Below are positions 14,201 through 38,292 of a stretch of DNA of 64,000 nucleotides, one piece after another (within the stretch, counting starts at the first letter, position 1; each line of letters starts with the position of its first letter). The position numbers and the translations under genes are program-made. The notes beneath the pieces were generated by a model. It was not told where the DNA came from. It saw only the letters and a list, made by a program, of their open reading frames with translations, and did no database searches. Origin of the DNA: Halichondria panicea (taxonomy: Eukaryota > Porifera > Demospongiae > Suberitida > Halichondriidae); NCBI RefSeq assembly GCF_963675165.1, contig NC_087390.1, positions 2,154,001 through 2,218,000 on the forward strand. Reading direction: 5' to 3'.

Positions 14201-17182
14201 AGAAGTATTGTTTAGTGCTGGTAGTTTCAGTACTTAGTAAGCGTGCAAAGACGGAGATAAATGTCTCACTGACGACAATTGATCAATTCGGCAGCTCACT
14301 TCTCATGACCACCACTCCGTCCGCAAGCGAGTTATTCTTTCCAAATTTTTGGGAGCTGTTACTTTCTTACTCATCTGTAGGTCCATGTAGTTAGTTTTGT
14401 GCAAAATCGTCTTGTGCTTCGAGCAATAGCCGCCGATTATAGGTATCTGGCGAAGATTGGTTACTTACTCTATAACTCGAGAACAAAGCATTATTTTGCA
14501 AATCCACGAATTAAAATCCAAGTAAACATGACTAGAAGCCTATAGAAACTCTTACTTGCACTTGATTCATCCTTGAGCAGCTGTAGCAGTCTACACAGAC
14601 AGACAGACAGACAGACAGACACACAAACACACTACCGTATACCTCGCTTGCGCATATCGCATGCGCATATCGCATGCGCACCGAGGCATAATAAGTAGCT
14701 TAGACTGCTAGCTAGCTCAGGTCAATATGACAATAGCACAAAACATAGTCTACAAAAACTTTTGCGTGCTGTATTGCTATTTTACTGTGTACAAATTGTC
14801 AAGATGATTCAAAAGTTGAATAGTGCTTGTATATAGGAAGTAAAAATATGAGCCATATTCCATACTTCCCTGGGGGAAGTAAAATATGGCTCATATTCAC
14901 TGGAAATCACCTATATAGGATACAGTGTGAATCAGTAAATAATGATGTTAATTTATCGGACACTTCTAATTTCCCCGGACACTCTTTTGGGCAATTTTCG
15001 TTGTTCTAACACAACGGACACTGCAGTGCTTTAATATTACATTTATACATTTATTCTAAATATCCAGACAATACCTTGAAAAGTTGAGTTACCATTCATA
15101 GACGACAAGTAAGACTTAGAGTGCTGCAGTTAGATAGGCGGGGCACAATGTCGATTTGAGCATGCGCACAAGGGCAATTCTAGCTTTAACACAATCCGAG
15201 CCAGGACAATAACTGAGCCAATAAGTGAGCCAGACCTGGGACTCATGCACAGTACCGTATATATGTTCCAATTATCGGACAGCAAAAAATAGGAAATTGT
15301 CTGGATATAATTGGAACAGATTTTTATAGAGCATGCGAAGTGTCCGGAACAAGCAAGCAGCTGCATGCGAGCTAGCTAAGTTTAATAGAACAGTGTGGTT
15401 ATACTATTAAATTCAACATACAATGTATCAAATATAGACCCTATATATACAACTGATGTTCGATAGTTTTCTTCTCTTTTTAGAGCGACGCTATATATAA
15501 ATATGAACTTCAGGGAAATCTTTAATGATCTCACACATTTCAGTTAGAATTTCGGAGGTTTCTTGAAACGATTTCTTTAAGCTTTTAGCAACTTTATTAA
15601 TTCCTAGTTGAACCAATTTTGCTTCAGCTTTCTCAAGCCGACAGCACGGATTTTCAACAAAAAAAATATTTTCAACTTCTTTTCCAAAATAGTCTTTCAG
15701 CATGCCTGGATTGAATTTGAGGTCCATAGGGTCGGCTGTGTTACTGAACACAACAATCACATTGTCAAGGATATCTCTCGGCAGGATGACAAGTATCTCA
15801 GTGAGGACATGCTTCAATGAAGCACTTGCTCGAGCTTGACGACCATTGATGATCAGGCAGACACAGTTGATGTACTCTTCTTTCTTGAGGGCGCTGATGA
15901 TTCGTTGTACATTTGTTTCATCTTGTATGAAGCCACGAGAATCACCAAATCCAGGAGTATCAATTACCCCAACCTTCAGGTCACCTACTTCCACATTGTA
16001 GAGTGTAGCATCTTTGGTCGTTGTTTCTATAGAGAGTGCTTTTGCGTTCTCAAGTTTGATGTCATTGAACTGTTTGAATTGCTCGTGACCATCGGCTTCA
16101 AACCCACAACCAAGATCCTGTACAGTGGCACAGTTGTAGAGAAGGTTGAGGAACGAAGTCTTGCCAGATCCAGTTTCACCGATTAACAGCATCTTGAAGG
16201 GATGGTGAGGATCCTTTTCCTTGAATGCCCAAAGAAAGCTTGTTTTGGCTCTGGTGGGTTGTTGACCCACTTTTGTTCTTGTTGATTGGCTCTATAAAGT
16301 AATAGTTGTAGTTTACGTATGTATGCATGCATGCTATCACATAATATTATTATACCTGATCCTTGGTGGTTTTAGATTTCTCTAAAGCTTCCAGTACTTC
16401 TGGTACCGACTCTTGCGATACTTCAATCTCCTGTCTAGTAATGCTCATCTTTACTTCAGTACTTGTGTTCCTCACACTAGGTCTTGTTGTTGTTGTCGTA
16501 GTTGTTGTGCTGTGCGTTTCAAAGCATTTGTCTAGCGTCACAACAAGTGAATTTATCCATGATCCTTGTTCCTTTAAGACAGCGACAAATTTGTGATAGA
16601 CTTGAGGGTCGTGTTCAATTGAGGTCTCCAAAAAATCTAGAGCAATCCTAACTTTGCTGTCTAGTGTTGAACCGCTTTCATGCACGGAAGTTTTCACATC
16701 TTTTGAAATCAACCCCTTTGAGTATAAAACATCTCCTACAGTAGCAATAGATCGTTGAAGAAATTGTACTAACACGTAGTAACACTCTCTAATGGTCTTG
16801 TGCTCTGGTGAACTCTCACAAGTAGCTTGATGAGGATTGTATGTAGCCATCTTTAGCATAACAGATATTAGACGTACATGTACTGTCAACAAGTTAATGA
16901 CATTTAAGGGCTTATAGCACACCTGGACGAAATCACAAAACTTATGAATTTTGATCGTACTAGATATTCACTGACCCATGCACTATTCCCTCCCCCCTAC
17001 AGACGTCTACCATCACACACGGTGGAGTGTGTTTCCCCCCCACCCCTCCACTACCCTCACCCCCGACCAATGTCTTCCACTACTACCAGGAACACTTCAC
17101 TGCAGCCACTCAACTCTGTGTGGTGAGAATGAGTGGGTGTATTGTGTGGGTGGGTGGGTGTATTGTGTGTGTGGGTGTGGGT

Positions 17183-17218
<36 letters not shown>

Positions 17219-18289
17219 GGAGGGGTTGAAACGAAAAAATAAATTGCGAGGAACTGCCTTATCTGACCGTAGAATTGGGTAACCACCTCTCCTATTTCCA
17301 ATGCATTTACAATGAGACATGAATGGCTGCAGGAATAACTAATTTCAAGCTGGTAAGCTAGCTAGCTATCATTTATATTCATGCTTCTAACTATTATTAT
17401 ACTATTACAATAATATGCAGTTTTATTTATTTGTACTTTATTACCTTCAACTCTTGTGATCTAGTAATTACTTGCATGAATTGTGTTTTTTGGGTCTAAT
17501 CTACTGGTTTTAAATACTCTCAAGGGAGGCCAGGGGGAGGGGGTTTGGGTAATTATGTGTACATGTAGATGTAGTAATTTGACCTGATACATGTATGTGT
17601 CTTTCTGTGTGATTTTTAAAAAAATGTGCCAGCGCTGTGTCTTTTCTTTATCCTTAGTATGACTTTACATTATTACACATCCTACTATATTACAGTACTG
17701 TACTCATAATTAGTTATCTATGTACACATGTATGTTATAGGGGGTGGCCATGCTGATCTGATTTCAGTATGTGCTTTAATTGACTAAAGGTATACACAAC
17801 ATAGAAACAGAAAAGCAAACAGATGCTCGGCCTGGAGAGTCGAGAATGATGGGTTAAAGAGTCTTTAATGGTGCACCAACTCTCCCCATTCATCTGTTGC
17901 ATTCAGTCACATACACATGCAACTACAGTGCTATATAACACTCAATAGTTATTGTACATCTATTCACATTGGGGCCATGCTGAATAATTATTGTAAAGCT
18001 GTAAAACGTTGAGGTCAAGCTGACATGAATTATAAGACTTATCTTCTAACTTGGACTTGATATTGGTTGCTGTGATACTTTAAGTTGGCTTTTAAAAGAA
18101 AACTTCTGAAGGGGGCTTAGGTATAAAGTACAACCCTGTATTGTCTGGGTCAGGTTTTGTGGTACATGTACTTGATAGTGGGGTTGGGGAATGTGGGTTC
18201 TTCTATGTGGTTAAACTGAAGCAAGCATACAACAAACATTAACCTCAAATTTTAATTCTTAGAATTAACAACAGGCATCAAATAGATAG

Positions 18290-18325
<36 letters not shown>

Positions 18326-18480
18326 ACTAGCTGATATGTATGTACTTTTCACTTTAAAAACATTAAAGTACTGCTTTCCTTGACATGATCATCGTTTATT
18401 AACCCCCTCCCCACGCATACACACCCACCCACACACACACCCACACCCACACACACCACACCCACACATACACACACACA

Positions 18481-18516
<36 letters not shown>

Positions 18517-21500
18517 GGATGGCAATGCTTCGTCCTGTCAACTACTAGCCAACCTGTGTACTCTACAACTCTACAACCGTGACGACCCTGCATGTGTGCT
18601 GATTCAGCAGCTCTCAGAGGACCTCTTGCAGAGCCTCTATTACCCCCCAGGGAGCGCTGACCAGGTGTTGGAGAGCACTGACATCCAGACATCTCTCATT
18701 ACCAGAGAGGGTGCCGAGGTGAGGACGAACTATAAACTAGTATTGTTGTATGAAGTACTTTGTAATTTTCCTTTAGGACCGTTATAGTTCTGAAATTACA
18801 TATCCACTAGTTAGTATGGTTGGTATTTATGACGTCTTTTACTTTTAAGCTTGCATTGTTGACATTGATATCTTATACATGTAGTCAACTGTATTCACTG
18901 ACCTGTTTACAGCACACCTGGAAAATAATACCAGCACAAAGGATATCATATGAATAATGCAAAACAACTGATATGTTATTCACATGACATGTACTACCCT
19001 CCCCCTTCTCTGTGTAGGGTGTGTCTAATCTCCCACTGTGGGCGGGGTCCTACTCTCTCAACGGGACCCTACTGGGACTGGAGGAGCTGACTCAGCAGAT
19101 ACTACTCTGTACTGAGCCCCAGCCGAGGGCCAGCGCTCTCTGGAGGGTGGGTGTGGTCTATCAGATCTCGGTAAGCCCCATAGTGTAGTAGTGTAGTGTA
19201 GCTAGCATGTATTAGTACAAAACGTATGTGCAGTTAATTGTGTATTCTAGACTGAGTCCTATTCTATTCCCCACGACATGTATACTCACACAAGTGTACA
19301 GTGTCCGCTGAAGCTCTGCTCAGAAAAGGCTCAAATGCTCCAGTATTCTACGAGCTCTGTATCCTCCAATTCAATACCTCTATTGTAGTGTACCGAGCAT
19401 GCCCAGTAGTCTCCTAACGCACCGAGCATGCCCAGTAGTCTCCTAACGCACCGAGCATGCCCAGTAGTCTCCTAACATCTGAGCATGCCCAGTAGTCTCC
19501 TAACATACTGAGCATGCCCAGTAGTCTCCTAACGTACTAAGCATGCCCATAGTCTCCTAACGCACTGAGCATGCCCAGTAGTCTCCTAACATACTGAGCA
19601 TGCCCAGTAGTCTCCTAACACACCAAGCATGCCCAGTAGTCTCCTAACACACCGAGCATGCCCAGGAGTCTCCTAACGCACTAAGCATGTCCAGTAGTCT
19701 CCTAACGCACTAAGCATGCCCAGTAGTCTCCTAACACACTAAGCATGCCCATAGTCTTCTAACATACTAAGCATGCCCAGTAGTCTCCTAACGCACCAAG
19801 CATGCCCAGTAGTCTCCTAACGCACTGAGCATGCCCAGTAGTCTCCTAACGCACCAAGCATGCCCAGTAGTCTCCTAACGCACTAAGCATACCCAGTAGT
19901 CTCCTAACGCACCGAGCATGCCCAGTAGTCTCCTAACGCACCAAGCATACTGAGAATGACCAGTAGTCTACTAACATACTGAGAATGACCAGTAGTCTAC
20001 TAACATACTGAGAATGCCCAGTAGTCTCCTAACGCACTGAACATGCCCAGCAGTCTCCTTAACCACACCCCAGACCTACATGATCAGACCTCAACCACGG
20101 ACACTCTCCACTCTCTACCAGTGCTCATCACTAACTATAGGAGCACGTCTGGGGAGGCAGTCAACGACGACAGCGATGTGGGAAGCTGGCAGTTTGTGAG
20201 GAGATTCTTCCTCTTTGAGTCCGTCACAGCCCGCCCCCTCTACACTAGCTCCACCACCCTCACGTAAGTCACACTTACTTATCAAATTCGGTGAATCTAT
20301 TCCCTATATCTCAGAATTTAGTTTTTTTATTGATTTTTTCCTCTCCTAAGATGTAGTAAACGTTACAGCTCTATTTTAATATTACAGAGTGTTGATGATG
20401 TCTGAGGGAGGGAGAATATTCCCCCCTTATCTTAGAGTGAGCTATTCTAATTGGACGCCTACTGACCAGGACCTTCCAGTAAGTGATGTAACCATGACAG
20501 TAGTGTAGCATTCGACTACAATTTAGATTGATGATCACAAATGTGTACCCTCCTCCGCCAGAGCTCCCATATCACGGAGTATGCGGGTACTAGTCAATCA
20601 TTCCTCATCGCTCTGATAGTGTTGTCCCTTGTCTGTGCCGTTCTGGGTGGTGTGTACTCAGGGTTAAAGGTCAACGGGTTCGTACGACGGACTGGACTCA
20701 CCTGCTGTGACCTACACGTTAGTTGACAGTGAAAATAGAGTAGTACATGTGAGAGGCCATACATGTACTTAATATAGCCGTTAGCTAAGTGTTTGTTTGC
20801 TCTGACGTTTACAGTCTATGAATTTGATTACTTTTTGCTGGTGAAATTTTTTTGAATGAGCAAAATCAGCAAAAAATTGATCTTTTGCGATCTAACTATA
20901 ACTATTGCGATTTGACAAGGATTGCAGTGGTGTAGGCAGGGGGGCTGGCAGGGCTAGAGCCCCCCTCCCTTTGTGCTCCATCAACTCCAACTTAGCTTGA
21001 ATCATCGTGATCTGTCGATCTATTTTGCTGAAGAAAAGTGATGGTTCAGCGCCTATGCTCAACCAATTTGAGCTCTGCCCTTCCCAAAATCCTGGCTACG
21101 CCACTGGAATGTATGCATTTACCAGTACTAATTTAAGTTTTGAGATTTTGTTTGCATTATGTTTGATGCTCGCAAAACATTATAGTGTAACACGGTATTT
21201 ACTGTTGCAGTAATAATCCTCTCCTCCTCCCTCTCTTCCAGTCCCTTGTGTATGCTGTGGTGATGTTCTGTGATGGAACCTCAACCCTCCTCTACCTACT
21301 CCTCACTGCCATCTCTCTCTTCTGGCTCATATTCTACAAGGTGTGTGTATAAAGCTATCTCGTTGGTAGCTACTGTACTCTGTGTAAAAGTAAAAGACAG
21401 TATTTTGGTACTTTCCCGGCTAATTCTAGCAATTTCAATGTTTTTTCCGGCTAGCCTGTGTTATTTGTGGGCGTACAAGTACACCCTTGTATACATAACT

Positions 21501-24500
21501 AGACTTACTATATAATTATGCTACATAATAATATAGCTGTGTATTTGTAGCAGTCGATGTGTGGGCGTACAAGTGCACAGCTACATGTACACAGATATAC
21601 ATGTACAGATTTTGCTCCTTATCTTATACACTTTCAATTGACCAAAATTGTGTCTGTTACTTAAGATTGACTCTATACATGTTCCCCCTCAGGTACAATA
21701 CTACCTGCTGCTACCCCTCCCCTCACCAACAGAGGACCTCACATTCATCCTCCTATTAGCAATGGCTGCACTCTTCAGAGTGAGTAGAATATTGCACTAC
21801 TTTTGTGAATGGGTGCATTGTAAATTGTAAATAGCTCAAGAGCTGCCGTGTTTTGCACGCTTCAATCCAACAATGGTTATAATGTTTGTCAGGATTAATG
21901 TCTGATTTTCTGAAAGCGTCCCATGCATGGTCTTGAAATATGGTCTGTGTCAAATTTAGTGCTTCTCATATGAAAGTACAGGGTAATGGTAAAGGCATTT
22001 TTGGTGTATACCGTATAGCGGGTATATTTCGAGGGTATAAATTTTCGCGGATGGACCGTTACAAAGGATTTCGCGGATTTTATTTTCGTGGTCTGAGTTC
22101 CAGCCTTTTGGCGCATGCGCACATCAACATGCAGCTGTTACCACCACACCGTTAGCCTCGAATCCAGGCCTAGCCTATAACGGTGAGGCACCTCTTATTG
22201 TCGATAGGTGTGGTCAATAATACTGAACACGTCTACTATTCAATAAAGATATAAATTTTCGTGGGTATAAATTTTCGCGGTAGAGGCTCAATCCGCGAAA
22301 ACCGCGAACATTTATACCCTCGAAATATACCCGCTATACGGTACATGTAGCAACAAAATGTTTGCATCATTTTGAAAAGTTTCTTTCTAGCTTTTTCAGA
22401 AAAAGAGATTGCAAAATTAATTAATGGTGCCCTCCCCCTAAAATGTGCGGTAATATTCGTTTGGTCTTAACCCCCCTCTCCCTCAGATTCTGCATGTGCT
22501 CTACCAACTGTGGCATCAGAGCAAGGTGGATGTGTTCTTCATTGACTGGGAGAAACCTCGTGGACTAGTACAAACAACCAATCAGAATGCAGACGTCGCC
22601 CAAACCATCCCCCCTAACAGGATGTCACCAGTCAGTATTTGGCGGACTTATTTTGTTGTTAACGAATGGAACGAGTTACAGTCTCTACGGAGGATCAACA
22701 ATACGCTACTGGTTGCCATGGTGCTACTGTTTGCCCATGTTATTGGATTAGAACACTTGGCAGAAAGAGATCCTGCCTCCAACGTGACCTCTGACCCCTC
22801 TCGATACTCTGCCCCCTTCAGTCCGATACTAAGATTCTCGATCACAACCATCTTCTTTTCCCTCTTTGCTGCCCTCCTGGTGAGCAACATACAATATCAT
22901 TCGACACACCTATACATGCATGTACCTGACTATTGTAATTCTGACTCTGTACAGAGGGGCTATATGTTCCTGATTTACGAGCGCTACTTTGAGCACAAGT
23001 TGCGTCAGTTTGTGGATCTGTGCTCTGTAGCTAACGTGAGTGTCCTGGTATTGTCCCGGCAACTGTACGGTCATTACATCCACGGCAAGTCTGTGCACGG
23101 TCATGCGGACACTGACATGAGACAAATGAACTACAACTTCAAGAAAGAACAGGTATACGTACATGTATGTGAATGGAATTATGTACTATTAATGTGCAGT
23201 TCATTCTGTATAGTTAAGTGCGGTCACTCTTACTGGGTAGACCAACCAGTATAGCTGTAATAACAAAAAAATACAAGTCCAAACACATGCTATAACCTAA
23301 CCTTTGGGGCCTGTTAAACTGACTGTATTATCATATTAAAAGCGTGACCTGATTATAGGGTGATCACAATAGACAGATTTTCAGTTTGTGCATGCGTACT
23401 CTATTGATCGGTTCTATATTCGATGTATACAGGAGGACATGTGTGGTAGGCGTGGCCTAGAGGGTGACGACCAGCTGTTTGAGATGCTCCTGACACGAGA
23501 GTTCAGGACTCATTACGATAAGATAGTCACTCCGTTACGAGGGGACGGGTTGTCACATGCACAAGCTGGTGAGGAGTGTGAGGGTGTGTGTGGTGTGACG
23601 CTTGTGCTCCCCCCTCAGGTCAGACGGGTGTGAGTGAAGCTGGTCTCAAGGCACACCAAGGATTAACTTATTACTTGAGTACTTTTATAGAACACGTGAG
23701 GCACCGTATACATGCATGTAGCTATCGACGTGTATGAAAAAGAGAACTTTCAATGTTATTGCTAAAACGTGATTTGTTGACACATTGAACCCCCCCCCCC
23801 CACACACACACACTCTCTCTTTATAGGGTCTCAAGGATGTGGACTACATTGTAGGAGTCAAGACTGCCATGGAGAGGCTACTAGGGATTGAATTTTTTGA
23901 CGCCCTGGGAAAATGTGTTTTCTACAAGAGTGAGTGAACCGATCACTGTATGCATAAGTGGAGTCAAGTGGGAGTACTGTTACATAGGCGAATCTGACGA
24001 TACCCGTTTAACTAAACATTTTCTCGGATTTAATTTTGACTTCAACCCCCCCCCTTCCTACACACAGCCGCTAGACACTCGTTTGGCGATGTGTTGTTCC
24101 ACGGTTGTGAGTGGAGTCTATTCCAGCTGGACCTGCTCCTCTTTGGGATCATAGATGTCGTATCCAATAGTTACCCACTGGCTGCCGTTATCACTCTGCT
24201 AGTATCTTGGGTGAGCGAAACCACTAATAAAACTACATGTATACAGAAAGTACTAAATTATTATATACTGCAGATTGAGAGTTTATGTTTGCTGTGTGTA
24301 TACCGTATATCTTCTAATTTATCGGACATAATTATTTTGGAAATTGTCCGGGTATAATTGGAACAGATTTTTATAGAGCATGCGAAGTGTCCGGAAAATT
24401 AGGCAGCTGCATGCGAGCTAGCTAAGTTTAATAGAACAGTGTGCGACTGAATAGTTGCACTAGCTATCTAAAACTAGCTACTCAAAGCTATCTAACTGCA

Positions 24501-24818
24501 GCACTCTATCTAAGTCTTACTTGCCGTCTATGAATGTAACTCAACTTTTCAAGGTATTGTCCAGATATTTAAAACGAATGTAATATTAAAGCACTGGAGT
24601 GTCCGTTGTATTAGAACAGCGAAAATTGCCCAAAAGAGTGTCCGGGGTAATTAGAAGTGTCCGATAAATTAGAAGATATACGGCATGTACTTTTTGATGT
24701 ACTTTTTGATCTCATCCTTTGCCCCACCCCCTCTCAGCTGGTGATGTTTGTGAGGGACTGGGCAGGTCGCAGGAACATTGCTAAAAAGACTCTAGTGGAT
24801 GAACGATTCTTGTTGTGA
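8215..24818 (+). CDS. TMEM67: Meckelin, copy A (20-exon model)
   Basis: Meckelin is the frizzled-like multipass protein of the ciliary transition-zone MKS complex. Exons by phase: 8215-8404, 8528-8604, 8660-8762, 9077-9204, 17003-17122, 18518-18718, 19018-19170, 19295-19384, 20088(or 20074)-20263, 20388-20478, 20562-20717, 21242-21340, 21693-21779, 22487-22879, 22955-23152, 23433-23568, 23619-23695, 23827-23929, 24068-24210, 24738-24818. The start gives a signal peptide (about 20 residues), then a Cys-rich extracellular region (exons 1-5). Membrane segments follow from exon 11. Diagnostic blocks are VDVFFIDWEKPRG and VSIWRTYFVVNEWNE (exon 14), RQFVDLCSVANVSV and YIHGKSVHGHADTDM (exon 15), and the C-terminus KKTLVDERFLL. 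About 940 residues against 995 in human. The exon 8/9 junction is uncertain because a 29-bp satellite lies there. Intron 4 (7.8 kb) contains GTPase gene G2 in antisense. Confidence 0.93.
9237..9298. repeat. Near-perfect 62-bp hairpin in TMEM67 intron 4, unit 1 only
   Basis: The left arm TTTACTACAATGTTTTGCTC and the right arm are exact reverse complements over about 24-27 bases, with a 5-base loop GGGGC. It begins about 30 bases after the exon 4 donor. Unit 2 has different sequence here, with a weaker inverted repeat of its own around 34057-34114. Confidence 0.85.
9868..11456. repeat. Cluster of foldback elements in TMEM67 intron 4, unit 1
   Basis: Three separate foldbacks are visible: 9868-9993 (arms CTTATTGTCCACTACAT and complement), 10094-10206 (arms around AGTGCTAAGCTTCTATATA) and 11349-11456 (arms around GACTGGTTGACTAGTA). 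A TA-flanked element with TACAGTAGACTCTCG ends lies between them at 10890-11328 and is listed separately. I see no gene between 9205 and 15490. Confidence 0.75.
10890..11328. mobile_element. Tc1/mariner-pogo-like MITE, 439 bp
   Basis: The ends are TACAGTAGACTCTCG and its complement CGAGAGTCTACTGTA, consistent with a TA target. The interior repeats a GGCCGGAATAGCGAGG motif in both orientations. No transposase coding is present. End sequences of this CAGT..CTCT form are typical of pogo/Tigger-type non-autonomous elements; the assignment is by resemblance only. Confidence 0.65.
12350..12490. repeat. Short tandem repeat, ~37-bp unit
   Basis: About three imperfect copies of a unit containing GAAGCACCCCAGGCACTCCT followed by GTCTCCAAGATCCCTGT. 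Open frames across it are by-products of the repeat. The surrounding 11460-12820 shows no gene that I can support. Confidence 0.65.
12828..13628. repeat. Direct repeat pair in TMEM67 intron 4, unit 1
   Basis: The segment from about 12828 to 13144 recurs at 13337-13628 in the same orientation. It starts TGAAAGCACCGCAGGTGCTG and includes the block with AGTAGAGTAGCAACACTCGG. A related sequence, with a CA microsatellite and the ending ACCGAGGCATAA, recurs at 14525-14692 and distantly at 59040-59338. This looks like one dispersed repeat family captured several times. Confidence 0.7.
13636..14478. repeat. ~840-bp palindrome with ~400-bp arms
   Basis: The left arm (about 13636-14035) and the right arm (about 14075-14478) are reverse complements with few differences. 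The spacer is about 40 bases and contains CGCCTCGATTCCAGGCC. The innermost matched bases include GAATATTTTGCAAAAAATAA and its complement. Small differences, such as a short insertion near 14290, show that the arms have diverged slightly. It sits about 1 kb from the 3' end of nested gene G2. Confidence 0.85.
14955..15400. mobile_element. Diverged copy of the TTATCGGACA inverted-repeat element
   Basis: It shares ordered blocks with the elements at 24301-24685 and 43823-44227, including TTATCGGACACTTCTAATTT, TTTGGGCAATTTTCG and ATTTTTATAGAGCATGCGAAGTGTCCGG. The arrangement here is rearranged or partly inverted. It is non-coding. Confidence 0.6.
15491..16859 (-). CDS. CARD-like + AIG1 GTPase (G2), nested antisense in TMEM67 intron 4, copy A
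   Basis: There are two exons: 16356-16859 and 15491-16291. Exon 1 ends AAG GAT CAG before GTATAA, and exon 2 begins AGC after TTTATAG, both phase 0, giving 434 residues. The start chosen is ATG at 16859 (MLKMATYNP), conserved with G3. Residues 20-100 form an all-helical domain (LVQFLQRSIATVGDVLYSKG ... PQVYHKFVAVLKEQ) resembling CARD/death-fold domains. A Thr-run linker follows (about 115-125). The G domain has GETGSGKT and DTPGFGDSRG. The protein stops just after the G domain (EVHIYI), so it lacks the Cys/His and coiled-coil tail of G1. Death-fold plus GTPase suggests an innate-immune or cell-death signalling role; that is inference. Confidence 0.75.
16978..18517. repeat. GT/CA microsatellites and intron 5 of TMEM67 copy A
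   Basis: Exon 5 is 17003-17122. Intron 5 carries a (GT)n run near 17162-17218, another near 18291-18325 and a (CA)n run from about 18420 to 18511. The last abuts the exon 6 acceptor at 18516-18517, where it stands in for a pyrimidine tract. Long open frames over these runs are artefacts. I see no other gene in 17219-18290. Confidence 0.8.
19391..20060. repeat. 29-bp minisatellite, ~23 units, at the TMEM67 exon 8/9 junction (copy A)
   Basis: The unit is AGCATGCCCAGTAGTCTCCT plus AACGCACCG, with small variants and two 28-bp units. The last unit runs directly into exon 9 sequence (CTCCTTAACCACACC). Twenty-nine is not a multiple of three and two frames contain TAA, so the array cannot be translated through. 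It must be spliced out or it breaks the gene. Copy B has about 14 units. Confidence 0.9.
20935..21106. mobile_element. Short hAT-like MITE in TMEM67 intron 11 (copy A)
   Basis: The ends are CAGTGGTGTAGGCAGG and CCTGGCTACGCCACTG, which are near inverted repeats of the common CAGTGGCGTAGCCAGG type. It is 172 bases, non-coding, and identical in unit 2 at 40456-40627. It lies inside another A/T-rich repeat (about 20835-21215) with GATGCTCGCAAAACATT at one end. Confidence 0.65.
22009..22343. mobile_element. 335-bp MITE with TACCGTATAGCGGGTA ends, TMEM67 intron 13 (copy A)
   Basis: The terminal inverted repeats are about 45 bases (TACCGTATAGCGGGTATATT ... and complement). TA at each end fits a TA target. 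Internal GCGGATTTTATTTTCGTGG-type blocks are themselves inverted. The same family recurs at 41530-41864, 56841-57052 and 60476-60676, with decayed copies at 54113-54273 and 46393-46455. Confidence 0.8.
24301..24685. mobile_element. 385-bp MITE with TACCGTATATCTTCTAATTT ends, last TMEM67 intron (copy A)
   Basis: The left end TACCGTATATCTTCTAATTT is matched in reverse complement at the right end (AGAAGATATACGG). It is non-coding and sits about 50 bases before the exon 20 acceptor. The unit 2 homologue (43823-44227) has several small indels. Confidence 0.75.
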
Positions 24819-24921
24819 ACATTCACTCACGACCCATGCAAATAATGTGCAACACTTATCACTTGTTTATGTTATGTACCACAACATGTGCAGAATTGTA
24901 TAAATGTTATTATAATAAGGT

Positions 24922-25297: not shown

Positions 25298-26476
25298 AGC
25301 TATAAAAATGATTACACAAGCAGTCAATACCTTTTAGCGTTGAGCGTGACTGTACACTATTGCATATGTTCCACCAACAAGAGCTATGTTGGCCAGGTGC
25401 AACACAATGCCACTGACGATGCCTCCAATTCCCCACTTCTTAGCATTTTGAGAGTGTTTATGGGCCAGCTCCCTGTCTCCTTTACTCCATTCAGTGTCAG
25501 CCTGCATGCGCGTGGAGGAGGGGTTGGAAAACACCATCATAACATCATCACATAACATGCATGTGTCCATCAATTTACTGTCATGCTTTCCGGATTGACT
25601 TAAATTTTACTCTCTGATTGCTCATAATTTATACTGGCCATGGAATTATTATACCCCAATTTTATTGTATACGTGTATACGTCGATGCATGTGCATTGCA
25701 GGACCTAATGTATAGCGTGAACAGCCATAAGACCATCTTGCATTTAGTTTCCATAGCTGTATACGTATTGTATTACAAGATTATTTTGCTGGTGATAAAT
25801 CTTTCAAACGAGCCAAAATCGGAGAAAATTGATCCTTTGCAGGATCTAACATTGTATTCTGGCTAGGTTTTGCCACAAATTTGATGCTCGCAAAGCATTC
25901 TATAGTATTACGGTCGGTATATAGACACCATTATATAACTGTTCACTTGATGACCAAAGTAGAGTCCGATTGCTCCACAGACTAGGCAACAACAGAACGT
26001 AGCAACAACAGTTAGGGGAAAGTAGTTAGGTGGTTTCACCATTAAGTAAGCATTGTTGTCTTGACGATGCGGGAATGGCTGTGCGTTTGGCTGTTGATTC
26101 ACCACACCACCATAATAGGGTCTTCCTGGCGGTGCTGAGGGTCGGTAAGGGGGCAGGGCAGGCTCACCACTACCACCTGGTGGGGCTGACGGTGCACCTC
26201 CTGCAACAAAATGCACGACATTATAATTATGTGACATGTACCAGCAGTGCTGCACAGAGATCAATATGTATACGTATAGCTAGCTATAATTATATATACC
26301 GTATTACTAGAATGTTTTGCGAGCATGCATGCATCAAACATTTGCGAACTTTGCGATGGTTGATCAATTCGCAACAATAAAATCCGCAAAACCTATTTTG
26401 TTACTAGTAGATACACACGATCCTTGCCAGAACGCAATAGTTAGATCGCAAAGGGTCAACGTACTTTTCTGCTGAT

Positions 26477-28626: not shown

Positions 28627-29207
28627 TGCTGATTTAGCTCATTGGCAAAGGTTTTCACCAGCAAAATGTTACTTTATGATTTTTGCAGACATGCAAAATA
28701 GCAACTATAGCGCCTTTGGTGATTCACTATTGACTACCGTAAATTACGTATAATAGGTGTTGACGGGACCCCAGTGCACAATATAATTATATGCATCATA
28801 TAATATAATTTGCTTGTAAAATGTGCCTATGGGCATGGTCTAGCTACCTGGTATCACGGGAAGAGCTGCTGATGAGGGTAATTGTCCATTTACAATGCCA
28901 TCTTCTTGCAACAGAGGTTTACTTTCTATATTAATTAATTTTGACAACTAACCAAATTGCACATACATGCATTCATGCGCGTTTTTATATATATATATGA
29001 TTGTAGTTGGTGGTAATTATCTTATCTTTTGGTCTGTTGCTTTTGTACATTTGTACTGTTTGATATTACATAAAAAAAAATTTCAACTACTCAAGCCTAT
29101 AATCACTCGCTAAACTAAACACACTAAGTATATAATCAAACTATTATTATAATACATGTCAAAGAAAATAATAGTCAGGATGTACTATATATAGGGTAGC
29201 TAAAACT

Positions 29208-30743
29208 TTACTTTCTTTTCTTGGCTTTTTGCACCACCTCTAGCTTTTTCTTGAGCTCAACTTTGGTCTTTCGAAGGTCTTCGGACTCAGGGCCAGTTGA
29301 AGCTTCAATATGTGTGTCTATTAGAGCCAGCTGGTTTTCCATCAACTTCGTGTAATTCCTTGCAATTCCCAGGGTCTCGAACTCTGTGATTGCTGCGAAA
29401 AGCTCGTCAGACAGCTGTTGTCGTTTGGTTTCAGATCCTTGCATTTGTTCCTCGAGCTCCTCGTAAAGTAGTTTAGCTATTTCTTCATCGCCTTTGGCTT
29501 TGTTGAATTTAGTCTCCATTGCATCATTAACCACAGGTTCGAATGATACTTGTTTCTCGAATAATTTCTCCCCATGATAGTGATATGTGTAGCTGTGCCC
29601 ACACTGGGAACAGGTGCTACCACCTCCCATTGCTCCACAATATCTGAACGACTCTTTATCGAATGATTTGGAAAGACCGCATGGAGCATGACAGTTGCTA
29701 TGGCAGTTAGTGTAAGCACACAGAGTGTTGTGGTGATTGGTTGGTTTTGCTACCCATCGTTCGTTTCGCATTGTAGTTCGAAACTCCTTGTTGAGCTCTT
29801 TTCGACTCAAAGCAGCTGACACTTCTTCCCTCTTCTTTCTTATTTCTTTTTCCAAGCGCATCTGGTTGTCATACTCAGTAAGTGCAACGAGAACAGTGCT
29901 TTCAATGGCTTGTTTTTTCTCATAGAGCTCAACAAATCGATGTGTGTGAACCTGATGGAAATCTTTGATGGTGGTGCACAGTTTACCCAGGACTTTACCA
30001 GTATCTTCAAACGATTTTTTCAGAGAGCTTGCAATTAAGTCAATACCGAGCTGTTTCACTTTACTTCGTGCTTTCTCAAACCGGCAGTAAGGATTTTCAA
30101 TGAAAAAGATGTGCTCGACTTTCTTCCCAAAATATTCAGTTAGTGCATTTGGATCGAAGTTGAGGTCCAGTGCATCACTGGTGTTGCTGAAGACAATGAT
30201 TACATTGTTAAGGATATCTCTTGGCAAAATGGCAGTGATCTCGGAAAGAACGTACTTAAGCGAAACACTTGCTCGAGCTTGACGACCATTGATGATCAGG
30301 CAGACACAGTTAATGTAGTCTTCATTTTTTAGTGCATTCACAATCTTTTTAGCATTTTCCTTGTCTTGGTCCGGACCACGAGAATCACCAAAGCCAGGAG
30401 TATCGATTACTCCAACCTTAAGGTCTCCCACTTCAACATTGTATCGCTTGGCATCATTCGTTTTGCTTTGCATTGCATGGTCCATTGCATTTTCTAGCTG
30501 GATGTCATGAAATTGTTTGAATTTTTCCAGGCCATCAGGTCCATACCCACAGCCAAGATCCTGCACAGTACCGCAGTTGCACAGAAGGTTAAGGAAAGAA
30601 GTCTTGCCAGATCCAGTTTCACCGATGAGAAGCATTTTGAAGGGATGGTGAGGATCTTGTCCTTTGAATGCCTGGAAAAAACCAACGATACCATCAGCAA
30701 TTTTTTCTCCTACACCACGTTTTTTCTTTCCATGAGATGCCAT
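29208..30743 (-). CDS. AIG1/GIMAP-like GTPase with Cys/His-rich region and coiled coil (G1', unit 2)
   Basis: The 511-residue translation is identical to that of the gene at 3107-4642: P-loop 41-48, DTPGFGD 114-120, Cys/His cluster 342-390, C-terminal coiled coil. Position and neighbours are also the same, between CD225 exon 1 and BBS5. Full identity of a 1.5-kb gene, flanks included, means very recent duplication, conversion, or an assembly that holds two haplotypes. Confidence 0.88.
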   Translation of the reverse strand: MASHGKKKRGVGEKIADGIVGFFQAFKGQDPHHPFKMLLIGETGSGKTSFLNLLCNCGTVQDLGCGYGPDGLEKFKQFHDIQLENAMDHAMQSKTNDAKRYNVEVGDLKVGVIDTPGFGDSRGPDQDKENAKKIVNALKNEDYINCVCLIINGRQARASVSLKYVLSEITAILPRDILNNVIIVFSNTSDALDLNFDPNALTEYFGKKVEHIFFIENPYCRFEKARSKVKQLGIDLIASSLKKSFEDTGKVLGKLCTTIKDFHQVHTHRFVELYEKKQAIESTVLVALTEYDNQMRLEKEIRKKREEVSAALSRKELNKEFRTTMRNERWVAKPTNHHNTLCAYTNCHSNCHAPCGLSKSFDKESFRYCGAMGGGSTCSQCGHSYTYHYHGEKLFEKQVSFEPVVNDAMETKFNKAKGDEEIAKLLYEELEEQMQGSETKRQQLSDELFAAITEFETLGIARNYTKLMENQLALIDTHIEASTGPESEDLRKTKVELKKKLEVVQKAKKRK

Positions 30744-30992
30744 TTCTTAAGAGCAGACCTGGTGAGATGTCTAATTCACTGTAAACTATGGAGCTTTAAA
30801 TAGCTAAAGGACAGGATGCATGAGAAGTGCATGTGTCATTATTGTGTGTATAATTATGAGGGAAAAAACCAGACAATACAGAACAGTATAGCAAAGGGAA
30901 ACTACCAGGGAAAATTTTCATTTGATGTAGTACAGTACATGCATGCAACAGAAAGTCTAGCATAAGATGGATAAGACAGTTGTTTAACTAGG

Positions 30993-32732
30993 TCACGTCC
31001 CATCTAGGTCTTGGAGAGAGTATCCCTCTGGTAGTTTCTCAATGGCTAGTCCCAGCTCAGGGGAAAACACAGGATTACGATCCACTGACTTGTGGGGGTC
31101 AGCATATATAATACGCCTGCAATTAAGGGTGGGGGTATGAATAAGGGAGACAGTACCTAAAGAATTTTGTTGCCAATTATTTATTTCAAAAGTGTCCATC
31201 TTGTCTTTGGTCTCCACCACCTCAATATCATCAGTCACACTCTCAGGCACTGGCAGAGATTGCTCATCATCACCAGAGTTCTACATACATGAACGGAATG
31301 TACCGTTTCATTGTACCGTTACTTTAATTTAATTTAATGAGTAACCAACACACCACAGACTCACTTAGTGTACAACTGCTCTCTCCCAGTAGGATACCAT
31401 AGCTTGAGCTCTCATAAGGTTTGGACATCACTAACAGCTGTCTGGAACCTGTGTGTTTAAATACGTGAAGATGAATTCAAACTGAGTCTTGTCAATTTTA
31501 CAACGCTTCAGTTGTCGACCTGGCCCTCTCTGTTTCTATGGAAACAGATGGCAAATATATAGAGTGACTCTACTAATTTTACACAAGTACATTGCATTCT
31601 ATATCACAGTGAAGTCATAGGAATGTTCTTGACACACGTACAGCAGTTGCACAAGAGAAAAATTTAATTATTTAGCATGCTGAAAGAGCTATATAACCAG
31701 CCATAAAAAGTTAAACTTATGATACTAATTTGGTCACTGCACAAGTATTCAATTGAAAAAACCAGACAAAAAATTAATAACAAAAGGCCCACAAATTAAT
31801 CATAAAAACATACAGATAGTACACTATAACTGTATACCCGCAATTGGGAAAGCCTTTGAGTGCTAGCATAACTGAAACCTTTCTGCTACATTGTATATAG
31901 GATATTATCAGCTATAAGACCCACCAAAAGGTGCCTTACTATACACCTGTTGGACACCAGGCAACCTTCACCACACAAGTTTCAATGAGTAACCAACACA
32001 CCACAGACTCACTTAGTGTACAGCTGCTCTCTGGGCAGTAGCTTCAACTCTTTGCTCTCTCCCAGTAGGGCACTCCGTAGCTTGAGCTCTCGATAAGGTT
32101 TGGACGTCTCGTACGCTGTGTACACTGACATCACCGTGGAGAACAGGCGAGGGCTGTCCGGGACCTGTGTACAGGGAGGGAGGGGATTGGTTGATGAAAA
32201 GAACGTTTTATGGAAAGAATAATTACTGAATGAAGGTTGGAGGTTATACTTACAAGATTAGTGAAGATGAATTCAAACTGAGTCTTGTCAACTTTAGTCA
32301 TCAAATACAGCGCTTCAGTTGTCCCTCTTTGTTTCTATGGAAACAGTGTCAAATATAGAGTTTCTATTCACGAGTACATTCAGTCACAGTGCACTCACAG
32401 AATTCACTCTCTTTGTAGTCACTGAGGTCACTGTGTGGTAACCAATGGCTACAAGAGGGTATATAAGCAAATGTACAGAATTATAGGCTAGTTGGTGAAA
32501 GCAATGAATGGATGTACATGTACACCAGAGCTTCTTGCTAACTCACAAAGGTTGACTCTCTGATAGTCAGCTGACGTCCAAATCACTCGCAGGTTGGTCA
32601 CAAACAGTTTACCTGTGTGGGGAGACTTAGTGTTACCTGGTAACATAACAACAACATACCTCTGTGTCCATTGTTCCCTTTAGTGTCCTCTACTTGAGAC
32701 AAGTAGTCGATCACCGACTCTCCCGCCCTCAT
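30993..32732 (-). pseudogene. BBS5: BBS5, copy B: N-terminal exons intact, second PH-like domain missing
   Basis: Exons on the minus strand: 32660-32732 (GESVIDYLSQVEDTKGNNGH), 32547-32612 (LFVTNLRVIWTSADYQRVN), 32399-32448, 32254-32334, 32013-32164 and a C-terminal part ending at 30993. All joints are in phase and the first PH-like domain reads as in other animals, including EALYLMTK and FEFIFTNL. Neither frameshift of copy A is present. As in copy A, nothing between 31290 and 32013 encodes the second PH-like domain; there is one ~650-bp unit of decayed exon 4/5 pieces instead. The true N-terminal exon (before the VEDTKGNNG exon) was not found. Either a truncated protein is made or this is a pseudogene and an intact BBS5 lies elsewhere. 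Confidence 0.75.
31336..31983 (-). repeat. Single ~650-bp unit with decayed BBS5 exon fragments (unit 2)
   Basis: Matches the units at 5235-5892 and 5893-6540. Unit 2 has one copy where unit 1 has two. It sits between BBS5 exon 5 and the C-terminal exon, where the missing exons of the second PH-like domain would be expected. Confidence 0.8.
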
Positions 32733-33071
32733 CTGGAGCAGGCTGGATGCGTGCAGGTGTGTAATGGGTACCATAAAAATAATGATACTTTACACATAAT
32801 TATTATTAAAAAACTAACTTGCTGTACATACAACCCATGCTTTCAGTGTATATTGTCAGTTTTGTCCCAGCATAATTACACACTATCTACTGCACTGTAC
32901 TGGATATCCATACAGCTGACAGAGGCCATTTTCACAGCAGCAGATCAGGATGGAGATACGCCCCCCTATCCTGCAGGGGGAGGGTGGAGATACGCCCCCC
33001 CTCTATATCCTGCATGACCCCTATCGACCTCTGCTCCATGATTTAGACACCTCTTCTCGATCTCCGGAGCT
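32733..33071. promoter_or_regulatory. Shared intergenic region between divergent BBS5 and TMEM67 (unit 2)
   Basis: About 340 bases separate the first recognised BBS5 exon from the TMEM67 start. It contains two copies of a GGTGGAGATACGCCCC-type repeat near 32950-33000, also present in unit 1. This is the cleaner version of the intergenic region, without the 547-bp element of unit 1. A shared bidirectional promoter is an inference from the orientation and spacing. Confidence 0.4.
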
Positions 33072-36000
33072 ATGCTTTCTGTTGCTGTCCTCTGCAGCCT
33101 CCTAGGAGCTCTATGGATCAGCCCTCTTAATGGCCAACAGACAGGACCCTCTCCAGTGGTGTTTGTGTCACCAGAGAGCTGTAGTGAGGGGGTGGAGTAC
33201 TACAGTCCCTCTAGACTGACCTGTCTCTCATGTGGGGCTAACCGGACCACTGCAGGGGATGGTAACTTTTATTAAAATTGAGTTGAGCTTGGGAATAAAA
33301 TGTATGTGCGATTGTTTACTGTACAATGGTGTGTTGGTTTCTATGGTAACTAATTGGGAATGATCAGGATTATGGATTTTGCAGGGTTGACGTGCACATG
33401 CTCGCCTGGTTTTATTCAGCCAATCGAATCACAGGATTGCACGGAATGCGCCAGCCCAACAGTAAGCACCGCCCCCCACACACCCCCTACCCCTAGCAAC
33501 CGTCCACTGTCACATGCACTGTAGGTATCGTCTCGTGATGGTCTGTTCTGTCTGTCGTGTGTGGACGGTTACAACTCAGCCACTGGACAATGCAACACAT
33601 GCCCTGGGGGGAGATCACACATCTTGGGTGAGTAACATCTTACTTAGTAATACCAGCCACGCTCAAGTTTTCAGTGATTTACAACCTTGAAATTTATTTT
33701 ACACTGTACATAATTGAAACGTTGCCCAGTATGGCCCCTGGAATTGTGTGGTTCTCCCCATCAGTCAAATTACTTCACTGACACAACTTCCATTTTGTAG
33801 GCTCAGGCACGGGTATTTGTTTATGTACTTACTGTACACTACATGCACTGTTGTGCGTTTTGCTTTGTGCCCTATAATGGCATACAGTGCTTATTTACCT
33901 CTTGTAACCCCTCCCCTAGTTGACACGCCCCCTGATCCCGCTGGTTCTCCCGGCAGTCGTGAGTGTGTGGAGTGTCCTGTAGGAACCTGGGCGGCTGTGG
34001 GGGGTCTCCAGTGTACCCCCTGTGGAGTGGGAGACTGCTCTCAGTGTGTGAGTGTTGTTAGCCTCATTCCCGGCTAGAATTTTTCTATAGATAAATTGGT
34101 TTGGGAACGAGGCTAGAGTGCTGTAAAATGTTTGCATGGAATGTTGTACCCATATACCGTATTACTACATGCAATGCTAATGACTTCGCAAAAATAAGAT
34201 TACAAACCCTATACTTATGTGCTCCTGCCTCTACTGACTTGTATGACATCACGATCGCTGCCAGATTAGGTCGCAAAGTGTCAAATTTTTGCTATTTAAT
34301 TGGCTCATTTGTCAATTACAAATAGTAAAATTATGTGTGAAAGTTGGTTGTATTGTGTTGCTAAAAGTTAGTTGCAAAGTGTTATTTTAAAATTGCTGCT
34401 ACTGCTTAACCTGAGGCGCTTAAGTGGCCATGGTTTATAGTAGCTTGTCAGTGTGTGTGTGTGTTTGTGTATCACTATGTATCCTGAGCCTGTTCACCTG
34501 CACGGCTGCTAAAATCGTTAAATATGGATACTGTATTTGTCGATTAATTGCCATGTCTGAATAATTATGTGCCTGATCTCAATTAAACCTCATGATTTAA
34601 TGGGATTCAAACGTTGGTTTCCTTAACACTGTGCCCTGAAACTTCTCAGTTAGGAAATACAGTGTAACTTCTGTTATCAACCACCTCCGAATAAAGGCCA
34701 GCTGCTATATAACGGCCAGGCACCCAGGTCCCAAATGAACAGTTTGTATACAAAACAACCTCTCAACAAAGGCCACCTCCGTATAAAGGCCAAAACATTT
34801 TTTCCCAAAGGTGTCCGTTATAGAGGGGTTCCACTGTAACTCTCAATCTGGCAATAGCCTCAATAATAATTATAATTAACACTTACCAATTAAAATGTAG
34901 AGTTTGTAAAACGTTTGTACCTTGCACGTTGGTTTTACTTGAGGCATCACTGATTACATTTGCTGGGCAAAATGTTACAATTATGCTGGAGTGGTGTCTT
35001 AAATGCATGTAGGTGAATACGGTAATATACATGTAGCTATAACCATCATGTATAGTGGCGTTGATTCAAGCTACAGTAAAGTATACCTTAATTTGATTAT
35101 CTGTCGATGTCTGGATTAACTCTGTTTAACAGTACATGTATATTTAAACGCCATCTACAAGTATGTGGTTATTTTAACAAGCACTACAATACAATAGGAG
35201 AACGCTGTAATTCACACTAGCCAGGGTTTTAGTGGGAAATTAGAGGGCCTTTTACCCTTCTTGGATTTGGTTAGCCCCTCTTGGAATTTTAAATTCAAAC
35301 GTGTCAACATTACCCACCCCCCCCCCTGTTTAATCAATGGGTCAGGGACTCTTTCAGCTGTACATTGAATTGAGTTCGTAGATCGAATATAACATTTTTA
35401 TGATGCTTAGAAAATACTTTTAAATGTGTTATCAATTTTAAATTTGGGAGATTTAAAAATGTTGGCCAAATATCGTGTGATTATATTATAATTATGGTCT
35501 ACTCTTATACTCTTGATATGGTCCAAGGCCAAAAATGTGGCTCCGACCAAATTTTAAATTTAAACATAATATTATCATTTAGGCCTAAGCTTTCATCAAT
35601 GGCACTAAAGTTATGAATTCAATGGTGCCCCCCTAAACTTTGCTAAATTGTGCACCCTCTTATTGAAATTAGCTGCACTGTGTGAACTGTTACATACACA
35701 TGACCAGAGGAGGCGGGACATGTGTCATAAGTCACATGGCAATGGAATGTGTGGCATACGTTAGGCTCTTGACCTTTAACCTTAGATTTCAGTGTAGCTA
35801 TGGTGCCTGTGTGGTAGCAAGCGCACATCACTTTCTAGTAATCTCCAATATTGTAAACTGTTATGGAAGACACGGCAACTAACCTGATTTTTAACCCTTC
35901 TAGACTGCTCTCCATAGTAGCCTATGTACAGTGAAAACCACTAGCTTTGATAGTGATTTTCAAGGTATTGAGCCGGGATCTCACTGGGATCGCTTATCTA

Positions 36001-38260
36001 TAAGTTATTACCATCCTTTTACTACATGATAGCTAAATTTTAGTTATAACCATGGGATCACTGCTGTTTTGGCTGCTTAAACATCCGCACTTTTCATGCA
36101 CAAATCCTTGTCTAAAGTGGTTAAACGTGGATTGTTAATTAACTGAGGTACACGTGCCCTACGTCCTCTGCACATGACTATGAGTAGGCCTGACCTGGTT
36201 ACATAATTATATCAATTATATATATATATATATAATTATATCAATCGATTATCATAGCGTCAGCGAACTGACATTCGATAAATGTGTGTGAGCTTGAGGG
36301 AAATCTTTGATGGTCTCACACATCTCAGTAAGGACTTCGGAGGTTTGTTCGAAAGCGTTTTTCAAGCTCTTAGCCACTCTATCAATGCCTAGTTGACCCA
36401 ATTTTGCTTTAGCTTTCTCAAGCCGACAGTATGGATTTTCAACAAAAAACATTTTAACCATTGCAACTTCTTCTCCAAAATACCCTTTCAGCACACCTGG
36501 ATCAAAGTTGAGGTCCAGAGAGTAGGCTGTGTTACTGAATACAACAATTACATTGTCAAGGATATCTCTCGGCAGGATGGCAGTGATCTCAGAAAGGACA
36601 TACTTCAATGAAGCACTTGCTCGAGGTTGCCGGCCATGGATGACCAGGCAGACACAGTTGATGTAATCTTCTCTCTTGAGGGTACTAATGATTCGTTGTA
36701 CATTCGTTTTGTCTTGTTTGAAGCCACGAGAGTCACCAAATCCAGGAGTATCGATCACTCCAATATTCAAGTCACCTACTGCCACATTGTAGAGTGTAGC
36801 ATCGTCAGTCTTGCTCTCCATAGAAAGTGCTTGTGCATTCTCAAGCTCGATGTCATTGAATTGTTTGAATCGCTCAAGAGCTCCGAACCCAGAGCCAAGA
36901 GCCTGAACAGTGGCACAGTTGTAGAGAAGGTTGAGGAACAAAGTCTTGCCAGATCCTGTTTCACCGATGAGCAGCATCTTGAAGGGATGGTGAGGATCTT
37001 TTCCCTTGAATGCCTGGAGAACACGAGCGTTTATCCCAGATGGTGTTACAAAAGATCTAAAAATGGCGCCTATATAGCTCACTCCTTTTTGGTGATCTTT
37101 TCTGGATGTTACTGTAAATAAATAATTATTTAAAAGGCTATTTGCTTCACATGCAAGGGTCATTATACCTTGTGTTTTTCGTGTTACGGTGGGTTGTTTT
37201 GACTCTGGTGGGTTGTTGTGTCTGATGGGTTGTTGAGGTTCTACCACTTTTGTTCTTGTGGACTGGTTCTATAAAGTAATAATTGTAGGTGGGTGTATGC
37301 TATGCATGCTATCACTATTATATCTGATCCATGTATTGTATGGTGATTGTAGTTTTCTCAAAAGCTTCCAATAGTTCCAGTACACACTCATGTGATACTT
37401 CAATCTCTTGCCCAATTCTCATCTTCACTTTAGTACTTGTGTTCCTCTCACTAGGTCTTGTCGTTGTTATCGTGCTGTGCGATTCAAAGCAATTGTTTAG
37501 TATCTCAACAATTGATTTAGTCCATGATCCTTGTTCCTTTAAGACAGCGACAAATTTGTGATAGACTCGAGGGTTGTTTTCAATTGAGGTCTCCAAAGCG
37601 TCCAGAACTTTCCTAGTTTTTTCGTCTGGCGTTGAACTGCTTTGATGTATCTGATTTTTCAGATATTTAGAAATCAACTCTTGTGAGTATAAAGTATCTC
37701 CTATGCTAGCAACAGATTGTTGAAGAAGTTGTACTAACTTATCATAGCACTGTCTAATTGTCTTGTGCTCTGGTGAACTCTCACAAGTAGCTTGAGGATT
37801 GTATGTAGCCATCTTTAGCATACAGGTATACTAAATAGCTAGATGTACATTTACTATATCAACAAGTTAATGGGCTTATAGCACACCTGGACGAAATCAC
37901 AAGACTTATGAATTTTGATAGTACTAGATATTCACTTATTCTCTCCTCCTACAGACGATTGCCACCACTCATGGTGGAGTGTGTTTCCCCCCCACCCCTC
38001 CATTACCCTCACCCCCGACCAATGCCTTCCCCTACTACCAGGAACACTTCACTGCAGCCACTCAACTTTGTGTGGTGAGAATGAGTGGGTGTATACATTG
38101 TGTGTGTGTGCATTGTTTACAAAGCCATATGCACATGTGCTCTGTACATTGTGTACTTCCCTGAAAAGGGTTCATTTAGCCTACTATAGCTACTTTATTT
38201 TTCGTTCACACACACGCACGCACACACACGCATGCACGCACACACACGCATGCACGCACG

Positions 38261-38292
<32 letters not shown>

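Follow-up and report, generated by a model that had tools for sequence, protein, structure and literature searches.

Does an intron of TMEM67 (meckelin) in the sponge Halichondria panicea host genes that join a death-fold domain to a GTPase, and what would such proteins do? We addressed this question in a 64,000-nucleotide window, i.e., the whole stretch of DNA analyzed, which is part of genome contig C14, and across its 131-Mb genome, in which silicatein-type exons point to a demosponge. The reading that we favor, and hold to be reasonably probable, is a small tandem family of genes, antisense in TMEM67 intron 4, that encodes CARD-GTPase fusions.

TMEM67 copies and their nested genes

TMEM67 occurs as three neighboring copies, B and C in the window and A just upstream. 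Exon placement with a human TMEM67 sequence as the query delimited copy B at 8215..24815 (plus strand), from the exon 1 ATG to the last matched exon and with exons 1 to 5 read, and copy C at 33162..44345 (plus strand), from the first to the last matched exon; both carry Pfam Meckelin matches. As the original prediction had it, nested genes B and C run antisense to TMEM67 and lie wholly between its exons 4 and 5. Splice borders were read at 9204/9205 and 17002/17003 for TMEM67-B intron 4 (9205..17002, plus strand), and TMEM67-C intron 4 (34048..37954, plus strand) was placed by the same border motifs, with its exon 5 read. Nested gene A (frames at about C14:2143917-2146200) likewise maps to TMEM67-A intron 4 by match positions (exon 4 match at 2142179-2142355) and by the reading of exon 5 (locus L043). 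Our literature search found no earlier report of a gene nested in a TMEM67 intron.

A CARD-less paralogue, a 512-aa open frame with a G domain and a Cys/His segment, lies between TMEM67 copies A and B at 3107..4645 (minus strand), and an identical frame is found at 29208..30746 (minus strand); both are outside TMEM67. Positions 1-5941 and 26102-32032 are 99.8% identical, so this repetition may in part reflect haplotypes or the assembly. The 15 to 20% difference between nested genes B and C and the existence of a third copy argue against a pure assembly duplicate. TMEM67 is probably a mere chromosomal address of the family.

Exon structure of the nested genes

In copy B, exon 1 (16356..16859, minus strand) is an open frame for a CARD and a Ser/Thr-rich linker, with a likely start ATG (MATYN) at 16850 that matches the start in copies A and C and in a fragment on contig C8. 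A predicted phase-0 intron of 64 nt with GT..AG borders (16292..16355, minus strand) separates it from exon 2 (15491..16291, minus strand), which specifies an AIG1/septin-like G domain of 266 aa and lacks the C-terminal half found in copy A. The exons are thus joinable in phase, as had been proposed. The same predicted phase-0 GT-AG junction is present in copy A, whose exon 2 is full length (576 aa) and includes a C-terminal extension that contains a Cys/His segment.

The claim that both duplicated copies in the window have this structure stands for B only. Copy C retains an exon 1 with CARD and linker (37324..37821, minus strand), assigned by Pfam CARD and predicted fold; at its intron position (37269..37323, minus strand, 55 nt) the donor is AT rather than GT, and its exon 2 (36252..37268, minus strand) has lost the C-terminal half and carries an Asp-to-Tyr change in G4 (NTAD to NTAY). 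Copy C therefore probably does not make the fusion, and the third copy, A, is outside the window.

The exon-2 frame of copy B opens exactly at the AG acceptor and contains no ATG before PFKM, where the G domain starts; an upstream exon would thus be needed to supply the conserved N-terminal portion of this domain. Exon-1 lengths of A and B differ by 3, 9, 3, and 9 nt, all multiples of three, whereas the intron differences are 7, 1, and 3 nt. All three copies have an uninterrupted exon-1 frame whose indels come only in multiples of three, and exon 1 stayed open in just 715 of 20,000 neutral simulations. Chance by itself therefore explains this poorly. As far as sequence can tell, we are highly confident that the anatomy, i.e., a nested CARD joined to a GTPase, is real in B and A.

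Identity of exon 1

The original prediction described exon 1 as death-fold-like, and profile comparison now specifies it as a CARD. We compared a 25-member exon-1 family by HHalign with reference sets drawn from this genome, which comprised 14 of its 44 CARD matches, 10 of its 126 Death matches, and 10 of its 27 DED matches. The family, whose alignment includes the copy B CARD core (16497..16826, minus strand; HMM match), scored 96.6% against the CARDs (E 5e-10), compared with 0.7% against Death and 1.2% against DED, and on these sets the latter two identities were rejected. The CARD score was 96.3% after removal of the three nested members and 92.7% for the nested trio alone, and the copy B core by itself gave 73.6%, 0.26%, and 0.61% for CARD, Death, and DED, respectively. 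In 40 column-shuffled controls, the HHalign score did not exceed 16.3, versus 55.5 for the real alignment.

Pfam CARD (PF00619) is the commonest family among the exon-1 relatives, with E<=1 in 9 of the 25. The copy C core reaches 24.2 bits, over the cut-off of 23.9, and its whole exon 23.1 bits; the whole exon 1 of copy B had no Pfam CARD match, and an NCBIfam search returned nothing useful. An AlphaFold2 model of the full exon 1 gave mixed fold matches, which we treat as weak. For a second model, 18 CARD-bearing entries stood among the first 20 VIA rows, and 1dgn, which we take to be ICEBERG, was among the matches. Sin3 PAH was the top PDB profile row and was rejected: its best single domain gave E 0.46 over 35 positions, versus E 0.003 over 65 positions for ICEBERG.

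Identity of the GTPase domain

All three nested G domains pass the Pfam AIG1 (PF04548) cut-off of 27 bits (A, 30.3; B, 32.4; C, 29.0), as do 7 of 10 distinct family members. L018 (23.8) and L019 (18.2) fail, and L010 was not listed for AIG1 in the Pfam run on family members, although its six-frame match reached 30.3 bits. HHalign of the G domain with eight AIG1 domains of the same genome gave 97.6%, a comparison made with AIG1 domains alone. AIG1 matches elsewhere in the genome reach 68 bits. The GIMAP-type assignment originally proposed needs qualifying: copy B also passes for Septin (33.8) and MMR_HSR1 (34.9), with scores about equal to that for AIG1, and the closest PDB rows by sequence are septins (E 0.0021, best 60 of 113 rows). 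Copy A scores 25.7 for Septin, under the cut-off of that family. No GIMAP structure appears among the best 60 of 113 PDB rows, which is not evidence against GIMAP. On these profile scores, we regard the GTPase as AIG1/septin-like and not clearly a GIMAP.

Copy B has intact G1 (GETGSGKT), G3 (DTPG), and G4 (NTAD) motifs. In copy A, G3 is changed from DTPG to NTPG (Asp to Asn). Among the three copies, a standard splice site is combined with intact G1, G3, and G4 in B alone, where the tail is missing. This pattern suggests that the family is in fast birth-and-death evolution.

CARD-GTPase genes elsewhere in the genome

A same-strand CARD-like match lies within 3 kb of 4 of the 56 AIG1 matches, against about 0.10 expected, which argues against chance co-location, bearing in mind that three of the four cases are the tandem duplicates nested in TMEM67. 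The fourth (L044, C15:5338042-5339121) is a CARD-AIG1 fusion in one uninterrupted frame of 360 aa with a clear AIG1 match (43.4 bits). As predicted for the nested genes, it has a CARD of the same family N-terminal to the GTPase, but in a single frame instead of two exons. Thus, two separate fusions, the nested family and L044, appear to exist in this genome by sequence comparison. Contig C8 holds a frameshifted CARD fragment in which exon 1, intron, and linker are kept together.

Evolution of the array

Copies A and C hardly differ across the CARD exon and linker but diverge in the G domain: window identity is 97 to 100% up to the G domain and 81 to 94% within it, and dS is 0.01 in exon 1 versus 0.30 in the G domain. 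At both ends of its G domain, copy C is closer to L011 (98, 93, and 93% at one end and 95% at the other). Several middle windows are nearer to A, and A groups with C in the tree; both observations speak against a simple derivation of the C G domain from L011 and limit the claim to a mosaic. From this mosaic identity, we infer that unequal crossing-over or gene conversion swapped gene parts within the array. At an earlier step, a single-exon GTPase probably gained the CARD as a new 5' exon.

Discussion

Three other explanations deserve consideration. The array may consist of decaying duplicates that no longer make functional CARD-GTPases, A or an ancestor having once been functional and B and C being pseudogenes or truncated by-products. 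The AT donor, G4 change, and truncation of C, the truncation of B, the G3 change in A, the frameshifted fragment on C8, and a CARD-core dN/dS near 1 (A versus B) all fit such decay. However, the open exon-1 frames and the neutral simulations, the donor, acceptor, and G motifs retained by B, and point estimates of 0.28 to 0.45 for the G-domain dN/dS speak against it, and we rate decay as rather unlikely.

We think it improbable that exon 1 encodes a CARD-only protein and that the GTPase has a transcript of its own. Regulators that consist of a CARD only, such as ICEBERG, are known, the exon-1 frame of A, B, and C runs into a stop one codon past the donor position, and exon 1 of C is intact despite the lost donor. 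Against two separate genes stand the in-phase GT-AG borders of A and B, the B exon-2 frame that opens at the acceptor with no start codon of its own before the G domain, the joint retention of exon 1, intron, and linker on C8, and the one-frame gene L044. Slightly less probable still is regulatory coupling, in which the promoter and 5' end of the antisense gene would overlap exon 5 or intron 5 of TMEM67 and immune induction would thereby repress or retune a ciliary gene. Some 150 nt separate the likely nested ATG (16850) from the start of TMEM67-B exon 5 (17003), with similar spacing in A and C, and the layout is present in three copies; these are tandem duplicates, so its persistence is not independent, and the CARD-less paralogues lie outside TMEM67.

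Septins and GIMAPs assemble in the GTP state. By analogy, the GTPase of the fusion may assemble when bound to GTP and thereby cluster the CARDs, which would seed a signaling filament and recruit a CARD adaptor or caspase. We tentatively propose that it would thus be a GTPase-gated scaffold in immunity or cell death, at odds slightly below even. More speculatively, and in our view doubtful, TMEM67 intron 4 might be a cassette site. Conversion or unequal exchange, bounded close to where the G domain begins, would let an AIG1/septin-like GTPase array swap its N-terminal modules (none, CARD, or filamin repeat). New CARD scaffolds triggered by the GTPase would arise in this way, independent in origin from the fusions of snail and amphioxus. 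The grouping of A with C in the tree weighs slightly against this reading.

We know of no CARD in vertebrate GIMAP or plant AIG1 (IAN) proteins, which share with the nested G domains an AIG1 match above the Pfam cut-off; unlike them, nested B scores about equally for Septin and MMR_HSR1, with septins as the closest among the best 60 of 113 PDB rows. The best fold matches of the exon 1 model include a teleost GBP-NLRP1-like CARD protein (PDB 4irl). Such proteins have a dynamin-like GBP GTPase and the CARD at the C terminus, whereas the sponge CARD is N-terminal on an AIG1/septin-like G domain.

CARD plus AIG1 is already in print, and the sponge genes would be a variant of it. Biomphalaria glabrata is reported to have a DD-CARD, AIG1, and coiled-coil protein (Bg8770; PMC7053062). 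It resembles the sponge genes in its CARD-type death domain, AIG1 GTPase, coiled coil, and expanded tandem AIG families; it differs in that the GTPase is a snail AIG1 rather than of the AIG1/septin-like subfamily, and the passages on it mention no TMEM67 nesting. According to the same paper, Amphimedon is not known to have AIG genes (PMC7053062). Amphioxus proteins with an N-terminal CARD on AIG1, some with HINT, are described as unique to amphioxus among animals, with highly dynamic gene presence or absence (PMC12373286). The N-terminal CARD on AIG1 would be shared with the sponge genes; Pfam listed no HINT family for L044 or for the nested exon 2 in any of the three copies.

If our reading is correct, CARD plus AIG1-type GTPases extend to sponges, beyond the stated amphioxus-only range. 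Two separate fusions in one genome would make it testable whether CARD clustering via an oligomerizing GTPase is recurrent in animal immunity, and the mosaic array would be a concrete case for how immune GTPases gain new N-terminal domains.

Results

The genome searched (131 Mb, 39 contigs) carries three tandem TMEM67 (meckelin) copies on contig C14, here A, B, and C, as judged from Meckelin profile matches and exon placement. The window spans C14:2154001-2218000. TMEM67-A lies wholly outside the window (exon-4 match at C14:2142179, last match to 2152714), and TMEM67-B and TMEM67-C occupy window positions 8215-24815 and 33162-44345. Intron 4 of each copy harbors a minus-strand gene. The original prediction of this host intron fits the exon borders read from the TMEM67-B sequence, since exon 1 starts at the ATG at 8215, exon 4 ends at 9204, and exon 5 spans 17003-17122; intron 4 of TMEM67-C corresponds to 34048-37954. 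Stop-bearing TMEM67 N-terminal fragments also occur at C14 2120.7 and 2128.1 kb, each followed after approximately 3 kb by a GTPase gene that lacks the CARD and lies on the minus strand (at 2123.3 and 2131.4 kb, respectively), and the Pfam Meckelin search found no match following either fragment. An inverted repeat within TMEM67-B intron 4 (13634-14472; 91% identity to its own reverse complement over ~840 bases) is perhaps a foldback element. Window blocks 1-5941 and 26102-32032 are 99.8% identical, whereas adjoining blocks share only 80-94% identity; this patchwork could reflect either recent conversion or an effect of the assembly.

In copy B, exon 1 (CARD plus linker) and exon 2 (G domain) join in phase 0 across a predicted 64-nt GT..AG intron. 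The equivalent intron of A is 55 nt long with GT..AG ends, and the 55-nt stretch at this position in C has AT where GT is expected. Only B keeps G1, G3, and G4 all intact, with G3 reading NTPG instead of DTPG in A and G4 reading NTAY instead of NTAD in C. Of the two duplicated copies in the window for which the fusion was claimed, B retains the predicted junction and C is probably broken. Exon-2 frames encode 576, 266, and 338 aa in A, B, and C, those of B and C stopping shortly past the G domain. Inspection by eye showed an in-frame stretch of ~57 nt (GTATAATGACC..TTTACAG) 5' of the G domain in A and C, which could be an additional intron. Exon 1 is probably coding, because it stays open in just 715 of 20000 neutral simulations and the four indels between A and B are all multiples of 3. 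The likely ATG of nested gene B (16850) is ~150 nt from TMEM67 exon 5 (17003), so an overlap between TMEM67 exon sequence and the promoter or 5' end of the nested gene is possible. At C8:2360336-2360679 (L004, L023) the CARD exon recurs as a dispersed, frameshifted copy together with intron and linker; no GTPase was seen there.

GTPase matches number 14, comprising 11 close copies on C14 and three at 27% identity on other contigs. The G domains of B (32.4 bits) and A (30.3 bits) pass the Pfam AIG1 cut-off (27), but B scores higher with Septin (33.8; cut-off 26.2) and MMR_HSR1 (34.9; cut-off 21.9); the corresponding scores of A are 25.7 and 23.5. Among the PDB matches listed, the closest are septins (E 0.002), and none of the 32 (of 56) genome AIG1 matches above 40 bits belongs to the C14 family. 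On these scores and matches, the nested GTPase is best labeled AIG1/septin-like. N-termini vary among paralogues, being CARD-bearing in A, B, and C, fused to a filamin repeat in L016 (C14:2884.7 kb), L018, and L019 (C14:2094.6 and 2101.7 kb), and devoid of an added domain in L010, L011, L014, L015, and L017. The G-domain tree does not track N-terminal type, as L016 groups with CARD-less members (100/100) and L018 and L019 fall in the other clade. Upstream frames of these three filamin-repeat loci resemble coiled coil by eye, and the loci carry these features in place of a CARD. The GTPase tail at window 3107-4639 and in L010-L012 contains a conserved Cys/His segment (CHSNCH...C..C.HSYTYHYH) that perhaps binds metal; Pfam gave no convincing match for it.

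Nei-Gojobori dN/dS is 0.28-0.45 in the G domain and 0.79-1.04 in the CARD core, where the A-C value derives from four changes. Between A and C, dS is 0.01 in exon 1 versus 0.30 in the G domain (A versus B, 0.26, similar), and identity falls from 97-100% before the G domain to 81-94% inside. C is nearer the CARD-less L011 at both G-domain ends and nearer A in several windows between; the G-domain protein tree groups A and C (96/93). The simplest reading of these patterns would be conversion or unequal exchange among copies, bounded near the start of the G domain.

A same-strand CARD-like match lies within 3 kb of four of the 56 AIG1 matches (A, B, C, and C15:5338225), against a chance expectation of ~0.10. 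These pairs represent two events, because A, B, and C, being mutual duplicates, count as one. The C15 locus (L044, 5338042-5339121, minus strand) is one uninterrupted 360-aa frame in which a CARD from the same family immediately precedes a clear AIG1 G domain (43.4 bits), and it displays the combination free of splicing assumptions. None of the 44 canonical Pfam CARD matches is within 10 kb of a same-strand AIG1 match. CARDs of this family also head a 1118-aa minus-strand frame that encodes, farther along, a UvrD-like helicase domain (L031:2-3355) and, in partly N flank, follow a ZU5 frame (33 bits; L007:351-947 and 1462-2079).

Elsewhere in the window, minus-strand CD225 (IFITM/dispanin)-like frames lie at 25908-26279 (32.9 bits; cut-off 27.1), 60731-61036 (27.4 bits), and 45442-45813, the last looking nearly identical to the first. 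The identical open frames duplicated at 432-1569 and 26533-27670 may be transposable-element remains; for their 239-aa frame, Pfam yields nothing at E<=1. Silicateins with Ser replacing Cys mark demosponges. A silicatein query returned 68 genomic matches; the three best (L084-L086) are single frames with the ordinary cathepsin Cys, and all six short exons examined among the others carry Ser (CGASYAF or CGSSYAF), which makes a demosponge the most likely host.

Discussion

Our analysis establishes the domains, their order, the junction signals, and the nesting of a real CARD-GTPase gene family within a ciliary gene, clearest in B and in copy A beyond the window. In the text available from each source, a DD-CARD+AIG1+coiled-coil architecture is reported in a snail and Amphimedon is held to be without AIGs as far as known (PMC7053062); amphioxus CARD+AIG1(+HINT) is described as unique among animals, with H. 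panicea homologues named in a tree (PMC12373286); and single-exon AIG1 genes of glass sponges are mentioned (PMC10282587). The accessible portions of two accounts of sponge CARD genes name no AIG1 fusion (PMC12909245, PMC6208332). Among the titles listed by the literature searches, none concerned a CARD-AIG1 protein of sponges. The CARD-GTPase kind has already been reported, and the sponge family is a new variant of it.

Septins and GIMAPs undergo GTP-driven assembly. By analogy, the sponge GTPase would assemble in the same manner, which would cluster the attached CARDs and, in turn, recruit a CARD partner.
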